A stretch of 21,429 nt of DNA from a virus. Below, in pieces: positions 6,732-21,429 of this stretch. Location: the IMG/VR virus record IMGVR_UViG_3300027580_000032, positions 1-21,429 of that record, one strand, 5' to 3'. The position numbers and the translations under genes were made by a program. A model generated the notes under the pieces. It saw only the letters and a program-made list of their open reading frames with translations, searched no databases and had not been told where the DNA came from. Within the stretch, counting starts at the first letter, position 1, and every line of letters begins with the position of its first letter.

Positions 6732-7079
6732 ATGCTGACGAGCATCTTGATCGGCGCCGGAACGACCCTGGCCGGCATCATCGTTCGCTTGCTCTGGAAC
6801 CGCAAGGTGGGGCGCCATATGCGCGCCAAGTGGCACCGCCGGTGGCTCACCCGGTGCGGCGTCACCGTCGGCAAGACCATGCTGCGGATGCCGACCCCGA
6901 GCGGCTTTGAGCTATGGGAGGTAGAAGACCTGGACGGGTCCGACATGCTGCTGCGCAACCTGTCGTCGCCGGGCCACGAGCGAACCACGTTCCGGTGGTA
7001 CCCCATCGCGCGGCTCCGGAAGGAGGGGATTGATTTCGTCGAGGTAACAGGGAGCGACGGCGATGGCCGACAAGGTTGA
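6732..7079 (+). CDS. Hypothetical basic protein with N-terminal membrane segment (115 aa)
   Basis: The frame is open upstream through the terminator, but GGAGGA at 6723-6728 places the true start at the ATG at 6732, downstream of the hairpin. Residues 2-21 (LTSILIGAGTTLAGIIVRLL) form one clear membrane helix. It is followed by a strongly basic stretch, WNRKVGRHMRAKWHRRW, which by the positive-inside rule would keep the C-terminal part in the cytoplasm. The rest has TPSGFELWEVEDLDGSDMLL and a TTFRWYPIARLRKEG block that look like short strands. It overlaps tail tubular A by 17 bp. I do not recognise the family. It might be a tail-assembly factor or a membrane-active lysis or superinfection protein, but nothing decides this. 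Confidence 0.72.
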   Translation: MLTSILIGAGTTLAGIIVRLLWNRKVGRHMRAKWHRRWLTRCGVTVGKTMLRMPTPSGFELWEVEDLDGSDMLLRNLSSPGHERTTFRWYPIARLRKEGIDFVEVTGSDGDGRQG

Positions 7080-7701
7080 GCTTGCCAACCTCGCCCTCCA
7101 GGAGATGGGCGCCGAACCCATCACGTCCCTCACGGAGGACTCCAAGACGGCACGGGTTATGAACCTGCGCCTGGACCCCCTGCTCGATAGCTTCCTTCGG
7201 TCGCACCCGTGGAACTTTGCCAAGGACCGGGCGCGCCTGTCGAAGCTGGTGGAGGAACCGGCGTTCGGGTTCCAGTTCGCCTACGCGCTGCCGTCGGACT
7301 GGGTGCGCACGCTTCACGTGGTCACGGATGGGAACAACCTTCCGGAGCAACAGGTCACCGAGCCGCACTACAAGATAGAGGGCCGGCGTCTTCTGGCAAA
7401 CCACGAGGAGGTGTTCCTGATCTACATCCGCCGAGTGGTGAACACCGAGGAGTGGGACCCCCTGGCTCTGGACGCTTTCGTGCTCATGCTGGCAAGCCGG
7501 ACGGCTCGGGCGATCACGCAGAACCTTGATCTGGCGCAATCTCTCGCTAACGACTTCCGGACCAAGCTCCAAGAGGCCCGGCACACCGACGCCACCGACG
7601 AGCCGGCCCAGCGGATCGAGAGCGACGAGTGGCTCGTCTCCCGCTTCGACGGCGGGGCCACGCGCCCATTTGGCTTCCGCGGGATCGACACGGAGGGCTG
7701 A
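7063..7701 (+). CDS. Tail tubular protein A (T7 gp11-like)
   Basis: This 212-aa protein forms the ring that binds below the portal and closes the head after packaging. The family signature is visible: VELANLALQEMGAEPITSL near the start, then a helix LRLDPLLDSFLRSHPWNFA at about residues 35-53, where HPWNFA is the hallmark, RARLSKL, then FGFQFAYALPSDWVRTLHV at about 67-85, and a C-terminal long helix with LASRTARAIT. The length is normal for the family (about 190-220 aa). GGGAG at 7050-7054 is eight bases before the ATG, inside the end of the preceding gene. The stop is two bases before the ATG of tail tubular B. Confidence 0.93.
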   Translation: MADKVELANLALQEMGAEPITSLTEDSKTARVMNLRLDPLLDSFLRSHPWNFAKDRARLSKLVEEPAFGFQFAYALPSDWVRTLHVVTDGNNLPEQQVTEPHYKIEGRRLLANHEEVFLIYIRRVVNTEEWDPLALDAFVLMLASRTARAITQNLDLAQSLANDFRTKLQEARHTDATDEPAQRIESDEWLVSRFDGGATRPFGFRGIDTEG

Positions 7702-7703
7702 AC

Positions 7704-10472
7704 ATGCCAAGCCTTGACGTCGTTCAGACAAACTTCACGCGCGGTGAACTCAGCCCTCGCCTTCGGAGCCGGCTGGATTTCGAGGGCTTCTTTAACGGCG
7801 TGGCGGAGATGCGGAACTTCTTCCCGGTGGTCCAGGGCGCGGCGGTAAAGCGCCCGGGCACTCGGCACGTCAACCGCCAGGATGGCGCCGCGCGGCTGGT
7901 GCCGTTTGAGTTCAACGTCGAGCAGACCTACGTCTTCGCGTTTGAAGACCAAGCGGTGAAAATCTACACGGAAAACCCGGTCAGCGAGAACCGCCGCTTG
8001 CGCCTGAACAACACCGTGTTGTCGGCGCGCGAAATCGGGCAGTTCGCGATCACCAACGGAACTTTCGACAGCGACCTTTCAAACTGGACGACGTCCAGTG
8101 GGTCGAGCAGTTCCGTGACGCAGAACAACGGCCGCGCCGAAATCCAAGTCGCCGCCGGCGAAAGCGCGGGTATCGAGCAAGAGCTTGACGTTGCCCTGAT
8201 CGGCACGGAAAAGGACCACTTCGTTCGCTTTGAAATCGGCACGGTCTTGGCGCAGAAAGGCCAAGAAGTGGAGTTCCGGGTCGGCACGGTATCCGGGGCA
8301 CAGGACGTCCAATTTCACCGGCTCCAGCCGGGGACCCACCTCGTCAAGTTCAACCCCGGCGAAAACGACACGGTGTTCCTGTCGTTCAATGTCGTAGAAC
8401 CTGACAGTGATATAACAGTATTTGTGGATAATGTCGTCGGATTTGCAAATGAAGATGTATTTCTGCCGACGCCCTATTCTGCGGATGAGGTCAATCAACT
8501 TTCTTGGGCACAATCCGCTGACATTCTGTTCTTGACGCACCCCAACTATTTTCCACGAGAGCTTCGGCGCTTGAGCGAAAACGAGTTCTCGCTCGTGTTC
8601 TACGACTTCAAGGATGGTCCGTTCGACGACCCAAACCAGACCGACACGGAATTGGAGTTCAGCGCAGCGACCGGCACGGTAACCGTCACCGCGAGTTCGA
8701 CCGACGGGATTAACGGGGGAGACGGCTTCAAAGCGTCGGATGTCGGGCGGCTGATCCGGTTCCGGCCGGAGGACCCCGCCAGCGTGACCCCGGCCACCGA
8801 CGGAACCACGGCGGAGTTCACCTTCGACTTCCCCGTTGCCTCCGAGGACGATGTCCGGGTGACGCTGACCAACATTGGCGGCAGCGAAGCAATCCAGAAC
8901 ATCGGCGAGGGGGCCACCATCGAAGCCATCCCCGAGGTGGACTACAAGCTGACGCTGAACGACGACGGCCGGGGCGGGACGGTGGACTTCGGCGTCTCCA
9001 AGCCGCCGGCGTCCGAGATCGAAGTCAATATCACCCGGGACAATTCGTTTTGGGGCTGGGCGGAGATCATCTCCGTCGAGAGCAACACAAGCCTGACCGT
9101 TGTGGTCAGGAATGACGGAGGTCTGGCCGGCCTTGGCCCGGCGCCGACGTGGCGCCTCGGCTCGTGGACCGGGTCCGGCTCCGGGTTCCCGCACGTGGTC
9201 ACGTTCCACGACCAGCGGCTCACGTTCGGGAGCAGTTTCCGGAACCCGCAGAACCTGTGGATGAGCCGCACGGCGGCGTTCGACAGCCATCAGCCGACGG
9301 AAAGCGACGGGACGGTCAACCCGGACAACGCGCTCGACGTCGAACTCGCGACGTCCCAGGTGAACTTCATCCGGTGGATCAGTAGCTTCTCCAACGGGCT
9401 GGCGGTCGGCACCAGCGGCAGCGAGTTCCTGATCCGGAAGTCCGGCACCGCGGAACCTTTGGGGCCAGAAAACATCCAGGTCCAGAAACAGACGCGCCGC
9501 GGCAGCGCGCCGTTCGTGCCCGAGGCGAACGTGGGGCACTCGATCTTTTTCGTTCAGCGGGACCAGCAAACGCTTCGAGAGGCAGCGTTCGACTTCGACA
9601 CAAATGGCCTTGTTGCCCGAGACATGTCCGTTTTCAGTGAACACCTTCTGCGTTCGGGCGTGTCACGAATGGCGTACCAGCAATCGCCGGAAAGCATTTT
9701 GTGGCTGTTGACAAATGACGGAAACCTTGTTGGGTTTACAATTGAAAGTGACCAACAGGTTTTCGGATGGACAAAGCATAACGTCAGCGGTAAAATCGTA
9801 TCTATTACTGTAATCACGGACCCGGCGAGCGCAAACGACCGCCTGTGGATGGTCGTGGAGCGCACCATCAACGGCACCACGCAGCGCCACGTCGAGTTCA
9901 TGGAAGGCCCGTGGTTCGGCGACCGGGACCCCGTCGAGGAAGCGTTCTTCGTGGATGCGGGGGCTACTGTGGTGAACCCGTTTCCGGACAACGCAGTCCG
10001 GGAGGGCCTGGACCACCTGGAGGGCGAGGAGGTTGCGATCCTGGCGGACGGCGCGGTCGCTGACCGCAAAACCGTCGAGAACGGCCGGGTGACCCTGGAG
10101 ACCAACAACGAGAGCCGGTTGGCGACGACGATCCACGTGGGGTTGCCCTACACGGCTCGGATCGAGACGTTCCCGTACGACCAGGGCCAGCGCGGCAGTA
10201 CCTCGAAAGGGAAGGTCAAGCGGATCAGCGAAATCGAAATCCAGTTTTTCGAGACCGTGGGTCTCTTGTACGGTCGCAAGGAACTCGACCGGTTGCCGTT
10301 CCGAAGCAGTTCGGACCCCATGAGCCAACCGGTGCAGCCGTTCACGGGCGTGCGCGAGGTGAAGATGCCGGCGGACTTCTCGCCCCAGGCCATCGTGCAG
10401 ATCGAGAGCGACCAGCCGCTCCCAGCGACGATCCTGTCGCTCACCATCGACATGGTTTTCGAGGACCTGTGA
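7704..10472 (+). CDS. Tail tubular protein B (T7 gp12-like nozzle)
   Basis: The protein is 922 aa from the ATG at 7704, which has GGAGGG six bases upstream (7692-7697); an earlier in-frame ATG lies inside tail tubular A and is not favoured. It forms the tail nozzle. Family blocks in order: NFTRGELSPRLRSRLDF near the start, AAVKRPGTRHV at about 48-58, YSADEVNQLSWAQSADILFL near 258-277, WGWAEI at 450-455, FHDQRLTFGS and SEFLIRK in the middle, then FVPEANVGHSIFFVQRD, ILWLLTNDGNLVGFT and a beta-rich C terminus. Residues 362-447 look like an added tail-fibre-type beta domain. Two stretches of DNA (about 8395-8560 and 9600-9830) are much more AT-rich than the rest. Its TGA overlaps the next ATG. 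Confidence 0.93.
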   Translation: MPSLDVVQTNFTRGELSPRLRSRLDFEGFFNGVAEMRNFFPVVQGAAVKRPGTRHVNRQDGAARLVPFEFNVEQTYVFAFEDQAVKIYTENPVSENRRLRLNNTVLSAREIGQFAITNGTFDSDLSNWTTSSGSSSSVTQNNGRAEIQVAAGESAGIEQELDVALIGTEKDHFVRFEIGTVLAQKGQEVEFRVGTVSGAQDVQFHRLQPGTHLVKFNPGENDTVFLSFNVVEPDSDITVFVDNVVGFANEDVFLPTPYSADEVNQLSWAQSADILFLTHPNYFPRELRRLSENEFSLVFYDFKDGPFDDPNQTDTELEFSAATGTVTVTASSTDGINGGDGFKASDVGRLIRFRPEDPASVTPATDGTTAEFTFDFPVASEDDVRVTLTNIGGSEAIQNIGEGATIEAIPEVDYKLTLNDDGRGGTVDFGVSKPPASEIEVNITRDNSFWGWAEIISVESNTSLTVVVRNDGGLAGLGPAPTWRLGSWTGSGSGFPHVVTFHDQRLTFGSSFRNPQNLWMSRTAAFDSHQPTESDGTVNPDNALDVELATSQVNFIRWISSFSNGLAVGTSGSEFLIRKSGTAEPLGPENIQVQKQTRRGSAPFVPEANVGHSIFFVQRDQQTLREAAFDFDTNGLVARDMSVFSEHLLRSGVSRMAYQQSPESILWLLTNDGNLVGFTIESDQQVFGWTKHNVSGKIVSITVITDPASANDRLWMVVERTINGTTQRHVEFMEGPWFGDRDPVEEAFFVDAGATVVNPFPDNAVREGLDHLEGEEVAILADGAVADRKTVENGRVTLETNNESRLATTIHVGLPYTARIETFPYDQGQRGSTSKGKVKRISEIEIQFFETVGLLYGRKELDRLPFRSSSDPMSQPVQPFTGVREVKMPADFSPQAIVQIESDQPLPATILSLTIDMVFEDL

Positions 10473-16253: not shown

Positions 16254-18718
16254 CGCTCGACTTGCGCGCGTGCCTGACCGCCAAAAGCGAGGAAGGCCGG
16301 GTCACAAAGGAGAAAGCCGAACGGGCCATCAACCGGTTCGAGGAACTGAACAAGGCCCTCGGCGACGCCCTGGAGGCGGGCAACCGCTTGGAGATCGAGC
16401 AGGCGGACGCCTTCCGCCGGCAGCAATGGACCCGGTTGAACGAACTGGTCAAGCAGAACGAGGTCATCAGTCGGCTTGACCGGAACGAAAACGTGGCCGA
16501 GCAGCGCATCGCCCGGAGCCTTTTCGACTTCACGACCAGCGGCCAGATTAACGAGCAGAGCGTGTTCCGGAATTACGAGGCCGTCCGGAAGACCACGCTC
16601 GCGATGATCTCCCAAACCATCGAGCGGTTTGAGCCGCGGGCTGCCGGGCTGCTCGACCCCGAGAACACGACGGCCGGCGAGACCAAGATGCGCGCGGTGG
16701 TCCGGGAGGTGTTCGGCGAGGACAGCAAGGACGCCGAGGCCAAGGAGATGGCCCAGGGCATCAGCCAGGGGTTGGAGTTCCTGCGCCAGGAGTTCAATCG
16801 CAACGGCGGCAACATCGACAAGCGTGAAGACTTCGGGATGCCCCAGCTTCACGACAGCCAGCGCGTCTCCCAGGTGTCGAAGGAGGAGTGGGTCTCCGAA
16901 ATCAAGCCGCTGCTTGATCGGCGCAAGATGATCGACTTCGATACCGGCGAGCAGATGACCGAGGAGCAGATCGACGATCTGCTGTCGGAGAGCTACGACA
17001 ACATTACGACCCACGGGCTGTCCGACTTCGACCCCACGCGGGGCATAGCCGGTGGCTCCAAGCTGACGTCTCGGCGCCAGCACATGCGGTTCCTCCAATT
17101 CCGCTCGGCCGACGATTGGTTCGAGTACCAACGGAAATTCGGCCCGAACGACGGGAACATAATGACCACGCTGACGGGCCACATCGACAAGATGTCCGCG
17201 GACATCGCGCAGATGCGCGTCTTGGGGCCAAATCCGCGATCCACGCTCGACGCCTTCGCGCGCACCGTTCGGAACCGCAGCGGGAAGCGCCTGGAGAACT
17301 TGTTGGAGAACAACCTCCGCGAGGTAAGCGGCGAGGCCAACCAGCCCGAGACGCCGGCGGGGATGGGGCAGAAGATCGCCGGCGCCGGCATCGCGGCGCG
17401 GAATTTCCTGACATCAAGCCTGCTCGGGCAGGCGTTCTTTTCGTCCCTGGTTGACATCCCGTTCAGCCAGATGGCCGCCAGCCACGCCGGCCTGCGCCCG
17501 GTGCGCCTGATCGGCCGGCACGCGCGCCTCATGCGGAACACTCGGGCCGGCCAGCGCCACCTGAACCGGCTCCAGCTTGTGAACGAGAGCCAGATCGACA
17601 AAGCGATGGCGGCGAGCCGGGTCAGCGGTGAGGTGCTCGGCACCCGGGGCGTGCCCGGTCTGAGCCGGCGCATCGCAGACGTGGTCATGCGCGCGTCGTT
17701 CCTCCAGCCCTGGACGGACATGGCCCGTGGGGCCTTCGGCGAGGAGTTCCTGGCGACGCTCACGGAGAACGCCGGCCGGACCCTCGGAGAACTGGAAACG
17801 CCGCTCCAGAACACGCTACGGCGCAATGGCATCGACGAGGCGAAGTGGGACACGATTCGCAACGCCCCGCGGTTCCAGATGGACGACCGCGGCACGGACA
17901 TCATCCGGCCCTTTGAGGTCATGGAGCAGGACCGCGAGACGGCCTTTGCCCTCCAGCGGATGATCTCCAGCGAGACCGAGTTCGCGGTGCCGACAGGGCT
18001 GTCCACGGTGCGCGCGGAGATGCGCCGGGGCACGCCCCCGGGCACTCTGGCCGGCGAGTTCCTGCGCTCCGCCAGCCTGTTCAAGAACTTCGTCGGCACG
18101 GTGACGGCGCTCCAGTTCGGCCGCTTCGCGCAGATCGAAGGCGGCTTGAACAAGGCCCGCTACGGCGTGTTGCTCGCGATGACGACGGGCGCGATGGGGT
18201 TGGTGGCCGAAAGCCTCGCCAATCTGGCGGACGGCAAGGAACCACCGGTCATCGACCCCACGACGCCCGAAGGCCGCGCGAACCTTGCCAAATCCTTGTG
18301 GCGCGCCGGCTCGTTCGGCATCCTGAGCGATCTGGTCTTCACGGACTTCGACCGCTTTGGCACCAGCCTCGGGGAAACGCTCATGGGACCGGTGGTCAGC
18401 GAAATCGTGGGACCCGGGTTGAACCTGACAGCCGGGAACCTGCGCACGCTTCTCACCGAGGAGGGCGCCCTGCGGGAGCCGCTGAGGTCCACAGACGCCG
18501 GCCGTGACCTCGTCGAGTTCGTCCAGGGCCTAACCCCCGGGCAAAACCTCTGGTGGTCCAATCTGGCCGTGCAGCGCCTGTTCTTCGACGAGGCACAGAA
18601 GCTGGTGGACCCCGAGGCCGCGCGTAGCTTCCGGCGGATCGAGCAGAGCGCCGAGGAGCGGGGCACGGACTTTTTCGAGGGCGCCGAACCCGGCGAAGCC
18701 TTGGGCCTAGGGGAGTAG
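16250..18718 (+). CDS. Large internal virion protein (822 aa)
   Basis: The ATG is within the ATGA overlap; GGAGTGGGA upstream gives a weak ribosome site, so coupling is likely. It opens with a long helical part (LRACLTAKSEEGRVTKEKAE). The middle has conserved phage blocks: DFGMPQLHDSQRVSQVSKEE at about 194-213, RRQHMRFLQFRSADDWFEY at about 275-293, and NIMTTLTGHIDKMSADIAQM followed by GPNPRST. Two hydrophobic segments occur near 387-408 (LTSSLLGQAFFSSLVDIPFS) and 638-660 (YGVLLAMTTGAMGLVAESLA). A C-terminal block GSFGILSDLVFTDFDRFG followed by MGPVV is typical of this family of large podovirus virion proteins, which are packed in the head and ejected with DNA. No enzyme motif is visible. Its stop overlaps the convergent gene by 12 bp. 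Confidence 0.85.
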   Translation: MTLDLRACLTAKSEEGRVTKEKAERAINRFEELNKALGDALEAGNRLEIEQADAFRRQQWTRLNELVKQNEVISRLDRNENVAEQRIARSLFDFTTSGQINEQSVFRNYEAVRKTTLAMISQTIERFEPRAAGLLDPENTTAGETKMRAVVREVFGEDSKDAEAKEMAQGISQGLEFLRQEFNRNGGNIDKREDFGMPQLHDSQRVSQVSKEEWVSEIKPLLDRRKMIDFDTGEQMTEEQIDDLLSESYDNITTHGLSDFDPTRGIAGGSKLTSRRQHMRFLQFRSADDWFEYQRKFGPNDGNIMTTLTGHIDKMSADIAQMRVLGPNPRSTLDAFARTVRNRSGKRLENLLENNLREVSGEANQPETPAGMGQKIAGAGIAARNFLTSSLLGQAFFSSLVDIPFSQMAASHAGLRPVRLIGRHARLMRNTRAGQRHLNRLQLVNESQIDKAMAASRVSGEVLGTRGVPGLSRRIADVVMRASFLQPWTDMARGAFGEEFLATLTENAGRTLGELETPLQNTLRRNGIDEAKWDTIRNAPRFQMDDRGTDIIRPFEVMEQDRETAFALQRMISSETEFAVPTGLSTVRAEMRRGTPPGTLAGEFLRSASLFKNFVGTVTALQFGRFAQIEGGLNKARYGVLLAMTTGAMGLVAESLANLADGKEPPVIDPTTPEGRANLAKSLWRAGSFGILSDLVFTDFDRFGTSLGETLMGPVVSEIVGPGLNLTAGNLRTLLTEEGALREPLRSTDAGRDLVEFVQGLTPGQNLWWSNLAVQRLFFDEAQKLVDPEAARSFRRIEQSAEERGTDFFEGAEPGEALGLGE

Positions 18719-18967
18719 GCCGGCGGCGGCGATCTTCGCCACCGCCAGCCCCGTGGTCACCACGACACCGGAAACCGCGGCCCCGCCGAGAACCCGGGCG
18801 CGGAACCGCTCCAGGGCGCTGATCCGCTGCTCCAGGTACTCGTACCCTCGGGAGTGGGAATGGTCCGTGTGGTCGATCTTGCCCTCGATCTTCTCAAGCT
18901 GGAGCTTGATCGCGTTCATGTCCCCGCGGAGTTCCCCGATCTGGTACTCTCGGTTCTGGTCCTCCAT
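18707..18967 (-). CDS. Holin/XhlA-like small membrane protein (86 aa)
   Basis: The start at 18967 is chosen because the tail fibre stop and this ATG form a TAATG overlap, and GGGGGA lies seven bases upstream. The protein has a polar N terminus, an amphipathic coiled coil (RGDMNAIKLQLEKIEGKI at about 14-31 and EYLEQRISALERFRARV at about 43-59), and one C-terminal membrane helix at about 58-80 (LGGAAVSGVVVTTGLAVAKI). A coiled coil followed by a single C-terminal helix is the shape of XhlA-type haemolysin/holin accessory proteins and of several phage membrane proteins encoded after tail fibres. A role in lysis is plausible but unproven, and no endolysin is seen in the window. A larger reading of the same frame from 19153 runs through the fibre gene and is not favoured. 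Confidence 0.72.
   Translation of the reverse strand: MEDQNREYQIGELRGDMNAIKLQLEKIEGKIDHTDHSHSRGYEYLEQRISALERFRARVLGGAAVSGVVVTTGLAVAKIAAAGLLP
18722..18746. other. Hairpin at the junction of the two convergent operons
   Basis: GGCGGCGGCGA at 18722-18732 can pair with TCGCCACCGCC at 18736-18746 with one mismatch and a three-base loop. It begins three bases after the stop of the last + gene and lies inside the coding sequence of the - strand membrane protein. No run of T follows on either strand, so it is not a standard intrinsic terminator. In such GC-rich sequence it may be chance. Confidence 0.35.
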
Positions 18968-21429
18968 TACTCGATCCCCCGCACTCGGACCCGGGCGCGG
19001 GAAATGGTCTCCGAAGGGTTCGAACTGAACAAGCGAAGCTGGTCCACGACCGTTGCGTTCTCGTGGGTGCCGGCCAACCACTCGAAAGTGACGTCGCCGG
19101 TAAGCCCTTCGGTGTAGATTTTCGTGTTCGCGTCCGGGTTCCGGGCGCCCCACACGTGGATTTTATAGTACGCGGTGTCCGCACTATCGTCGGCCGGCGG
19201 GCCACCGCGCCATTGGAATTGCTCCTGCCCGCTGGCGGCGTCCACGCGCGGCTCGCTGATGTCGAACGGCGTGGTCTGTTGGTTGTACCGGTAGTCGTTG
19301 GTGAAGTACGAGCTTCCGCCGTCGCCCGAGAACTGGATCGCCAACGCACCGCTGCCCGCGGAGAACTGGACCTCCGTCATCTCGATGACGAAGCGCGTGA
19401 ACGACGTGTCGAGCGGAACCGAGATTTCGTCCACCGGCGCCGTGATGTTCGTCGAGAAGGTCAGCTTCTCATCTACGGAGCTTGCGCCCGTGCCGCTGGC
19501 GACGCCTCCGCTGCCGGCCACGGCAGCCGTCAGCACGCGCTCATTCTGCTTGGTCGCGATGCCGAACGTGAACGTCCCGTCGGTTTGGACGACGCCCTGG
19601 TCATCCAGGAAAAGACGCTGACCCGGCTCGAAGTTCGTGGACGTGTTCACGAACGTCTCGGACCCGCGGAGCGCCACCGTCACGTCATCCCCAGCGGCAA
19701 AGTCCTCCGTGGCGACACCGATCCACTGGTCGCGGTTTGTGGTGACCCCAGGCGTGGACCCCACAGTAACCCGGAGGGCAAAATCGTGTTCGGACTGTGA
19801 CCCCCTATACGTTGCGACCACTGCCCCAAAATCCGAGTCGAATACGCCGGGTGCGCGGTTGTTTGTGTCTGCATCGCCGAGCGGAGACAGGAGCGTCAGC
19901 AAACCAGACGCCCCTTGCCCGCCGGGCAACAGGTTAATTTCCGGCCCGCTCGGGTCCACGAACCCGGTAAGCGCAGCTATTCCAGAACTGCCCGCAGCGC
20001 CAAGGCCAGGGGCTTCTCCGACGAAAACGAAGGTCCCGGTATTCGCGTCAAAAGTAGGATGTCTTAATGATGGTGACTCATCGCCAAAAGTAGATTGGCT
20101 CTCAACCGTAAGGTTAGCGCCAGTAGCAGAAATAACGGCTCCAAATAGGCCGCTATTATTTCCCCAAAGCGCCACAAAGAATTTGTTAACAGAGTCCCAA
20201 ACCGTTCCGTAATTACCAAAGCCATTTTCACTAAGTTGGATGGAATTTCCGAAGACAATCTCGGTCCCGTTAAGAGTAATGCCGATTACAAAAGGCTGTT
20301 CTCCAATGGTTTCGGGCTGATATGCTACGCAAAAGGCGTTGTTTTCAGGCGAATATGAGAACCGACGCGCAACCGCACCGTTTGTGCCTCCGATTGGGTC
20401 CGATACAAAGCTACCAAACGAAAGAGTTTGGCCGACGGCATCAACCGATGCGGCCAGAAAACCGGCGTTATTGGAGCTTTCGATCCTTGCGCCGATCAGA
20501 ATTACGCCTTGTTCGGGATCGTACCCGGCCCCGATGCTTACAGAGTTAGAAGCAATCTCTCCAGACGTCTGTTTTGCCCCTACAGATAGTGTAAGGTTGT
20601 TGTAATCCGGCTTGCACACGTAACCTACAAGTTCACCTGAAAAATCGCCCCCTGCGGTCTCATCTCGGGCAACGACGACGAAAGTGTCGCCAACGGAGTC
20701 GTATACTAGAGAAAGACTTCCTTCAAACCCGAATATAAATTCCTCAATAAACTGCGCCGGACCAATCGCGTCAACAACTTGGTTCTCCGCGTCCAAAGTA
20801 AATAGGACAATTTTCCATTTACCGTTATCGTCTCTGTCTCGGAATAACGCAGCGTGCGTTTTGCCCTTCGGGCTATAAGCGTGTTCTGATGGACCACTGT
20901 TGACTGTAATCAGCGTAGAGGTGTCGATGGCACCTCCGTTGGTCTCCGAACGCTTGACCAACTCGACCTCCGCACTACTGCGGAGGGCCACCGGATCACC
21001 GCGCTGGCCGTTTTCCGCGGCGGTGAAGGTTTTCGAGATGGAGGACCCACCACCAATGTCGCCGGCGTTCACGATGGTAGTTTCGCCGTCTTCGCCCTCC
21101 TCGCCCGGGTTGATGACGATGTCACCGTTTTCGTTGGTGCCGAGCGTGATGTCACCCGAGACCTCGTTGATCGAGAACACGTTGGCCTCGGGGGTCCACT
21201 CCCCGGAGGTGGGGTTAAAGCTGATAACGTCTCGCGCGTTCGGGCTGGAGGCGCTGACGTTGGTCAGGTCGCTCAGGGTCTGCGGCGCCGTGATGGTCAG
21301 GTCGCCGTCTTCATCGACCAAATCCTGGAGGTCGGTCAGCGTCGGGCAGCCTTGGGTGTTGAACTGAATGAACTTGCCGGCGCGGGTCTCGGCCGGCGGC
21401 AGGGGCGGGCAGTCCGGGTTCTCGCCCGG
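18967..21429 (-). CDS. Tail fibre / receptor-binding protein, N terminus beyond the right edge
   Basis: The frame is open from the right edge to a TAA at 18967-18969, giving 820 residues. An internal TTG at 21321 could be read as a start, but the frame continues upstream with fibre-like sequence (ETRAGKFIQFNTQGCPTLTD), so the gene is partial. Order from the N side: LSDLTNVSASSPNARDVISF, a short GDI/GNI-type strand repeat, SISKTFTAAENGQRGDPVAL, seven repeated aromatic-Asp/Ser units (20877 down to 19840) likely to form a beta-propeller, a shaft domain (QWIGVATEDFAAGDDVTVAL, then FEPGQRLFLDDQGVV and FGIATKQNERVL), and a C-terminal beta-sandwich (TRFVIEMTEVQFSAGSGALA, FSGDGGSSYFTNDYRY, ending RARVRVRGIE). 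These blocks are well known in podovirus fibres. No chaperone or CLec-type end is visible. Confidence 0.9.
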   Translation of the reverse strand, partial: PGENPDCPPLPPAETRAGKFIQFNTQGCPTLTDLQDLVDEDGDLTITAPQTLSDLTNVSASSPNARDVISFNPTSGEWTPEANVFSINEVSGDITLGTNENGDIVINPGEEGEDGETTIVNAGDIGGGSSISKTFTAAENGQRGDPVALRSSAEVELVKRSETNGGAIDTSTLITVNSGPSEHAYSPKGKTHAALFRDRDDNGKWKIVLFTLDAENQVVDAIGPAQFIEEFIFGFEGSLSLVYDSVGDTFVVVARDETAGGDFSGELVGYVCKPDYNNLTLSVGAKQTSGEIASNSVSIGAGYDPEQGVILIGARIESSNNAGFLAASVDAVGQTLSFGSFVSDPIGGTNGAVARRFSYSPENNAFCVAYQPETIGEQPFVIGITLNGTEIVFGNSIQLSENGFGNYGTVWDSVNKFFVALWGNNSGLFGAVISATGANLTVESQSTFGDESPSLRHPTFDANTGTFVFVGEAPGLGAAGSSGIAALTGFVDPSGPEINLLPGGQGASGLLTLLSPLGDADTNNRAPGVFDSDFGAVVATYRGSQSEHDFALRVTVGSTPGVTTNRDQWIGVATEDFAAGDDVTVALRGSETFVNTSTNFEPGQRLFLDDQGVVQTDGTFTFGIATKQNERVLTAAVAGSGGVASGTGASSVDEKLTFSTNITAPVDEISVPLDTSFTRFVIEMTEVQFSAGSGALAIQFSGDGGSSYFTNDYRYNQQTTPFDISEPRVDAASGQEQFQWRGGPPADDSADTAYYKIHVWGARNPDANTKIYTEGLTGDVTFEWLAGTHENATVVDQLRLFSSNPSETISRARVRVRGIE
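19840..20877 (-). repeat. Seven-fold protein repeat in the tail fibre (likely beta-propeller blades)
   Basis: Seven units each carry an aromatic residue followed by Asp or Ser and then a hydrophobic strand: AYSPKGKTHAALFRD, LVYDSVGDTFVVVARD, AGYDPEQGVILIGAR, FSYSPENNAFCVAYQ, TVWDSVNKFFVALWG, PTFDANTGTFVFVGE and GVFDSDFGAVVATYR. The aromatic codons start at 20877, 20703, 20523, 20355, 20199, 20052 and 19842, giving periods of 58, 60, 56, 52, 49 and 70 residues. Between them lie second strands such as TLSFGSFVS and EIVFGNSIQ. The DNA copies are not alike, so the repeat is old or diversified. Confidence 0.75.

Follow-up and report, generated by a model that had tools for sequence, protein, structure and literature searches.

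The window analysed here takes in the whole of the IMG/VR virus record IMGVR_UViG_3300027580_000032, which is 21.4 kb long (21,429 nucleotides) and is listed without a completeness estimate. A podophage structural module in it holds an adaptor gene (tail tubular protein A; 7063..7701, + strand; phrog_394, E 1.4e-54), directly followed by the gene of a 922-residue nozzle, or tail tubular protein B (7704..10472, + strand). The nozzle belongs to the tail protein family phrog_376 (E 1.4e-175), as shown by a match that spans positions 1–710 of the 712 in the profile, that is, its whole length, and by the fold of solved nozzles. The Tail Nozzle of Carin-1 (PDB 8ck1) also matches in sequence (E 2.9e-75). 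The AlphaFold model of the full nozzle, with 52 sequences in the underlying alignment, reached a pLDDT of 80.3 and a pTM of 0.80; VIA-align superposed it on 8ck1_A with Z 41.0 and rmsd 2.0 over 649 aligned residues, and on the T7 nozzle 9jyz_P with Z 28.1. A Pfam search of the whole nozzle returned no match. The list of open reading frames starts the gene upstream, at GTG 7629; we prefer ATG 7704 because the relatives start at the equivalent position. A genome_contigs scan returned no relative and hence no hint of the host.

Towards the far end of the window, an open frame of 820 residues (18967–21429, − strand) runs off the window end. By eye its make-up is fibre-like, and part of it weakly resembles head decoration or scaffolding families; it gave no phage match at E ≤ 0.01 and has no counterpart in the records of the three close relatives described below. 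Adjoining its stop is a small frame (18707–18967, − strand; about 86 residues from MEDQNREY) that appears holin-like by eye, with a hydrophobic C-terminus.

The nozzle contains a stretch of 95 residues (aa 354–448; 8763..9047, + strand) between the motifs GRLIRF and FWGWAEI. On either side lie the two parts of a presumed nozzle-tip domain, so assigned from its place between propeller strands and from mapping to T7. The first part (aa 305–353; 8616..8762, + strand) ends in GRLIRF (aa 348–353), and the second (aa 449–492; 9048..9179, + strand) starts with FWGWAEI (aa 449–455). Within the stretch, a core that resembles fibre N-termini (aa 366–446, DGTTAEFTFDF ... IEVNITRD; 8799..9041, + strand) is detected by an HMM of cyanophage fibre N-domains. 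The core includes a conserved loop (aa 397–419; 8892..8960, + strand) that holds QNIGEGATIEAIPEVDYKLTL. The peptide quoted in the original prediction is present, and its residue range, aa 362–447, is correct; the nucleotide range that went with it, 8785–9045, lies two bases off frame and runs into stops, the in-frame range being 8787–9044.

Three close relatives were found (L001, L002 and L003), with nozzles 68–76% identical to that of the window. All three carry the segment, at 71–75% identity, so it is not an artefact of a single assembled contig; a chimera was rejected, the segment being on four separate contigs. Scans of viral_contigs with profiles A1 and A2 recovered the same three relative contigs. 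Mean pairwise identity among the four close nozzles is 74% for the insert, 63% for the tip flanks, 59% for a second, carbohydrate-binding-module (CBM)-like insert discussed below, and 95% for the loop. Few stretches within the first 573 residues of these four nozzles are as conserved as the loop with QNIGEGATIEAIPEVDYKLTL, which is longer than its counterpart in the fibre domains compared.

The wider family was surveyed in an alignment of 100 nozzles, comprising the window, its three relatives, 16 nozzles from named phage records and 80 from viral_contigs, these last being the best 80 of 595 confirmed, picked by likeness to the window. We scored the link, defined as the residues that separate the VGRLIR strand from the G(W/Y/H)xxI strand (aa 354–448 in the window). 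In this set, with the best 80 of 595 included, the link is six residues or fewer in 74 nozzles, counting three rows without the VGR motif whose link value is doubtful (L032, L063 and L066). It is 94–95 residues long in four, namely the window and its three relatives, and the fibre-type insert occurs in this clade only. Ten nozzles have a link of 62–80 residues of different sequence, five have other lengths (L028, 140; L021, 58; L023, 41; L093, 14; L020, 11) and seven have no aligned residues there. The segment is thus an insertion into a hairpin that most of the nozzle family keeps short, and on this point the original prediction, which had placed an insertion between GRLIRF and WGWAEI where a short link is normal, was right.

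A tree of 98 rows was built without the insert columns (L081 and L021 were left out, and 10 rows fall in an unscored class). The four insert-bearing nozzles form one group (SH-aLRT 100), which nests in a set of seven rows (support 96) whose other members are two short-link rows and L028. The fibre-type insert therefore has a single origin. The different module of the ten nozzles, which were grouped by eye, follows a W...Y...Y... pattern, often with PxHTxG and DG. One of the four modules tested in Pfam matched CBM_5_12 (E 1.2e-5, 25.7 bits; cut-off 26.2). On the tree, this other type of module requires at least three changes by starred branches, and four by the shortest count. With a single origin for the fibre-type insert and at least three changes for the other, the hairpin is a repeated insertion point. 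Separately, three nozzles (L085, L092 and L069) have extra segments just after the GYxKI strand, e.g. TTTLSSGINNSATSFNIASNTGFQ..., so other hairpins of the tip domain may accept insertions as well.

The likeness to fibre or spike N-termini, also predicted originally, is borne out by profile comparisons in both directions. The fibre HMM comprises 59 unique N-domains of cyanophage-type fibres and was seeded from matches of the insert itself, which favours the insert; on it the four inserts score 27.2, 20.7, 19.2 and 19.1 bits (the last being the window insert), against 10.3 bits for the best shuffle (1,953 reported of 2,000 made). T7 gp17, a true PF03906 member, scores 14.4 bits, below all four inserts, and none of the 96 other nozzles is among the 25 best rows (down to 6.0 bits). 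Alignment of the insert with the fibre HMM by hhalign gave a probability of 93%, or 96% with Dpo31 and S38C3 added. In the reverse search, an HMM of the insert was run against 3,461 frames, a set that includes loci fetched with the fibre profile and whose ranks are read by locus class rather than by per-ORF annotation. Here ranks 4–60 are all fibre-derived loci, the fibre matches fall mostly within the first ~60 residues of the frame, and no frame from the other nozzle loci ranks among them. Six of the nine PHROG families matched by the inserts are also matched by genuine fibre N-domains (36476, 13518, 1640, 6518, 32829 and 27277).

Direct searches were less uniform. The insert of L003 retrieved 27 records by tblastn (E 0.2 to 8), mostly tail fibre or tail proteins, and in the four records fetched the match lies at or near the fibre start. 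The window insert alone gave no tblastn match against phages at E ≤ 10, and phmmer of it against the PDB returned only unrelated weak matches. For profile A2, the best PDB match is domain D1 of Dpo31 from Carin-1 (E 0.017), over most of the domain. Neither the inserts nor the four records of the clade match PF03906, a model that control fibres hit with E values of 1e-10 to 1e-43; Dpo31 D1 has no PF03906 match either. The C-terminal 66–67 residues of the inserts, taken alone, are not clearly above chance, 4 to 21 of 1,902 reported shuffles reaching their score, and most reverse matches cover profile positions 5–50, with Dpo31 (3–84) as the exception. The homology thus rests mainly on the first ~45 residues. 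Overall, the inserts resemble the wider fibre N-domain profile above chance, while lying inside a nozzle instead of heading a fibre or spike, and from these comparisons we consider the insert very probably homologous to fibre N-domains.

In a local profile alignment with T7 gp12 (probability 95%), the insert region falls between T7 residues ~131 and ~343. Set beside the nozzle-tip location described for T7 in PMC6702177, this makes the nozzle tip domain the most likely seat of the insert, and the hairpin that carries it probably faces the host. What is called the "fibre dock" in T7 and P-SCSP1u is another domain of the nozzle, located close to the adaptor (PMC10575957 and PMC6702177). By the same alignment the insert site would fall at the distal tip, away from the T7 dock, and the earlier suggestion that the segment may be a fibre dock draws no support from this layout.

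The nozzle has a second insertion at aa 113–248 (8040..8447, + strand), for which a CBM-like jelly roll is predicted from the fold match of the model. The range 111–250 of the model matches the porphyran-binding CBM 8xmz with Z 13.5 and rmsd 2.6 over 125 aligned residues, and the range ~111–250 matches 3jxs with Z 13.3; further CBMs were matched too, so that the predicted model has the CBM jelly-roll fold. In sequence, aa 113–248 match CBM_4_9 at E 1.6e-4 and 22.5 bits, below the cut-off of 25.9, and a Pfam search at record level gave no CBM_4_9 match for it. Among the aligned nozzles, with the best 80 of 595 included, this insert was seen by eye only in the window clade, where it diverges faster than the fibre-type insert. 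It is the clearer adhesin candidate of the two, as far as the predicted fold can tell. At the corresponding site (aa 89–250 of the window), many Pelagibacter-type nozzles have another module of 80–89 residues (TISGATxANPVVIT...HGYSNGDEV...VGMTELN), present in 29 of the 100 nozzles, again with the best 80 of 595 included (e.g. L014, L011 and L012), which marks this site as a second insertion point.

Two readings would make the segment something other than a captured fibre domain. The notion that it belongs to the normal nozzle fold draws on the fact that all three close homologs carry it, an outcome that the original prediction had counted against itself. The wider family lacks it, however: with a link of six residues or fewer in 74 of the 100 nozzles (best 80 of 595 included), and with the insert group nested among short-link nozzles in the tree, we rejected this notion and regard it as hardly credible. 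The other reading takes the insert for an unrelated β-sandwich, Ig-like or of the CBM_X2 type, that shares DG-x-T-x-F-x-F with fibres by chance or convergence. Its basis lies in the fold data and in the non-significant score of the C-terminal half. Modelled alone, the insert reached a pLDDT of 56, and values within the full AlphaFold model range roughly from 38 to 69; a fold search with the low-confidence isolated model (pLDDT 56) gave no match at E ≤ 0.001, and its top VIA matches, at Z 6.8, were generic Ig-like domains. CBM_X2 (PF03442) was matched by the L003 insert (E 0.0058, 17.1 bits, below the cut-off of 28.9), one insert of the four, whereas fibre families are matched by more inserts and in both directions, and on the fibre HMM the inserts outscore T7 gp17, a true PF03906 member. 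We therefore judge an unrelated sandwich improbable.

What the domain does is less certain. In the account that we tentatively favour, at a little under even confidence, a β-sandwich of the fibre-start type (as in the T7 gp17 N-terminus and Carin-1 Dpo31 D1) would have been inserted once, in the clade ancestor, into the surface β-hairpin of the nozzle tip domain, a recurrent insertion point that takes sugar-binding-like modules in other nozzles. Taking the nozzle to be a hexamer, as in solved relatives, six copies would stand near the distal end of the tail as exposed accessory modules, contacting the host surface as the nozzle lands, in concert with the CBM-like insert at aa 113–248. Host-surface contact is favoured because the same hairpin carries sugar-binding-like modules elsewhere and probably faces the host. 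An exposed module is consistent with the CBM_5_12 match of one module at the same point, with the second, CBM-like insert in the same nozzle and with the mapping of the site to the T7 tip region. Against this account, the domain in fibres anchors to the tail, without known host binding, PF03906 is unmatched and the fold prediction of the insert is weak. An adhesin by homology alone was rejected, since this domain forms the tail-side end of fibres; the description in PMC10575957, with the N-terminal domain attaching to the tail, likewise speaks against the original idea of the nozzle's own accessory adhesin. Close behind, and nearly as likely as host contact, comes the docking of another tail protein. 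Here the domain would keep its ancestral job and pack against or hold a fibre, possibly of a second type, or an adjacent nozzle subunit, which we take as a real but lesser possibility. Attachment to the tail is the known role of the family (P-SCSP1u fibre N-termini; Dpo31 D1), and conservation is higher in the insert than in the surrounding tip, its loop at aa 397–419 reaching 95% identity. In the four sequences available, 74% identity for the insert, against 63% for the flanks and 59% for the CBM-like insert, fits a virion-internal partner better than a fast-changing adhesin. On the other side, the insert rejoins the nozzle strand straight after ITRDN, without the FFPGSAIKAEDLN stretch, probably a helix, seen after the domain in the fibres inspected; lacking such a stretch, it is not a complete anchor. 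Its mapped position at the distal tip also lies apart from the fibre dock of T7, and no second copy of the domain occurs in the window or in the records of the three relatives, all four being fragments. A neutral or bracing decoration, which stiffens or spaces the tip without a binding partner, would suit a short hairpin that, from one family member to another, accommodates various modules or stays empty; it seems rather unlikely given that the insert is kept in all four clade members and is more conserved than its flanks. Also unlikely, and more so, is that the nozzle captured a fibre's anchoring domain and uses six copies as an additional ring of attachment sites at the tail tip, each able to pair with a similar domain on a separate fibre or spike protein; if true, domain pairing would let the clade carry extra fibres at the distal end or swap them.

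For either host contact or contact with a tail protein, the nozzle would be directly involved in adsorption or in displaying fibres, beyond its role as a DNA gate. More broadly, one hairpin of the podophage nozzle tip emerges as a natural site for mounting modules. Most nozzles leave it empty and others fill it with a sugar-binding-like or fibre-type module, suggesting that exchangeable parts are mounted at the tip. Insertion of domains in nozzle-like proteins is already known from the crAss001 muzzle, as described in PMC10172136. A literature search, in which few subscription journals were covered, brought up no title that mentions a nozzle with a fibre-type domain, which does not prove that there is none.

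Compared with the T7-type fibre N-domain (PF03906; T7 gp17, Syn5 gp46), the insert shares the DG-x-T-x-F-x-F motif, the strand after it, the Y strand, the x-V-x-F strand and the PA...I-x-I-x-R end, with significant HMM similarity in both directions. It differs in being internal to a nozzle instead of starting a fibre, in having no helix-like stretch after it, in its longer, highly conserved loop and in not reaching the Pfam model. The fibre N-termini of P-SCSP1u, made up of a jelly roll with a helix, sit between the docks of the adaptor and the nozzle (PMC10575957). The best PDB sequence match of the insert, Dpo31 D1 of the Cobetia phage Carin-1 (PDB 28lx, 8ck1; E 0.017), is a β-sandwich of residues 8–87 that joins the trimeric spike to the virion base, according to PMC13317679. 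Whereas D1 is a spike-to-virion joint, the insert sits in the nozzle itself, and the Carin-1 nozzle has another kind of module at the insert point. With the phrog_376 nozzles (Pelagibacter HTVC010P type, Carin-1 gp36, epsilon15 gp12), the window nozzle shares the whole-length match and the gene order after the adaptor; it is set apart by the fibre-type insert, confined to 4 of the 100 aligned nozzles (best 80 of 595 included). The crAss001 muzzle gp44 is likewise a nozzle-like propeller with inserted domains. PMC10172136 describes these domains as Ig-like and of the "crass fold"; they are not fibre N-domains. They are inserted in and between the propeller blades, the length of the protein varies by insertions, and the distal domain is thought to touch the cell surface.
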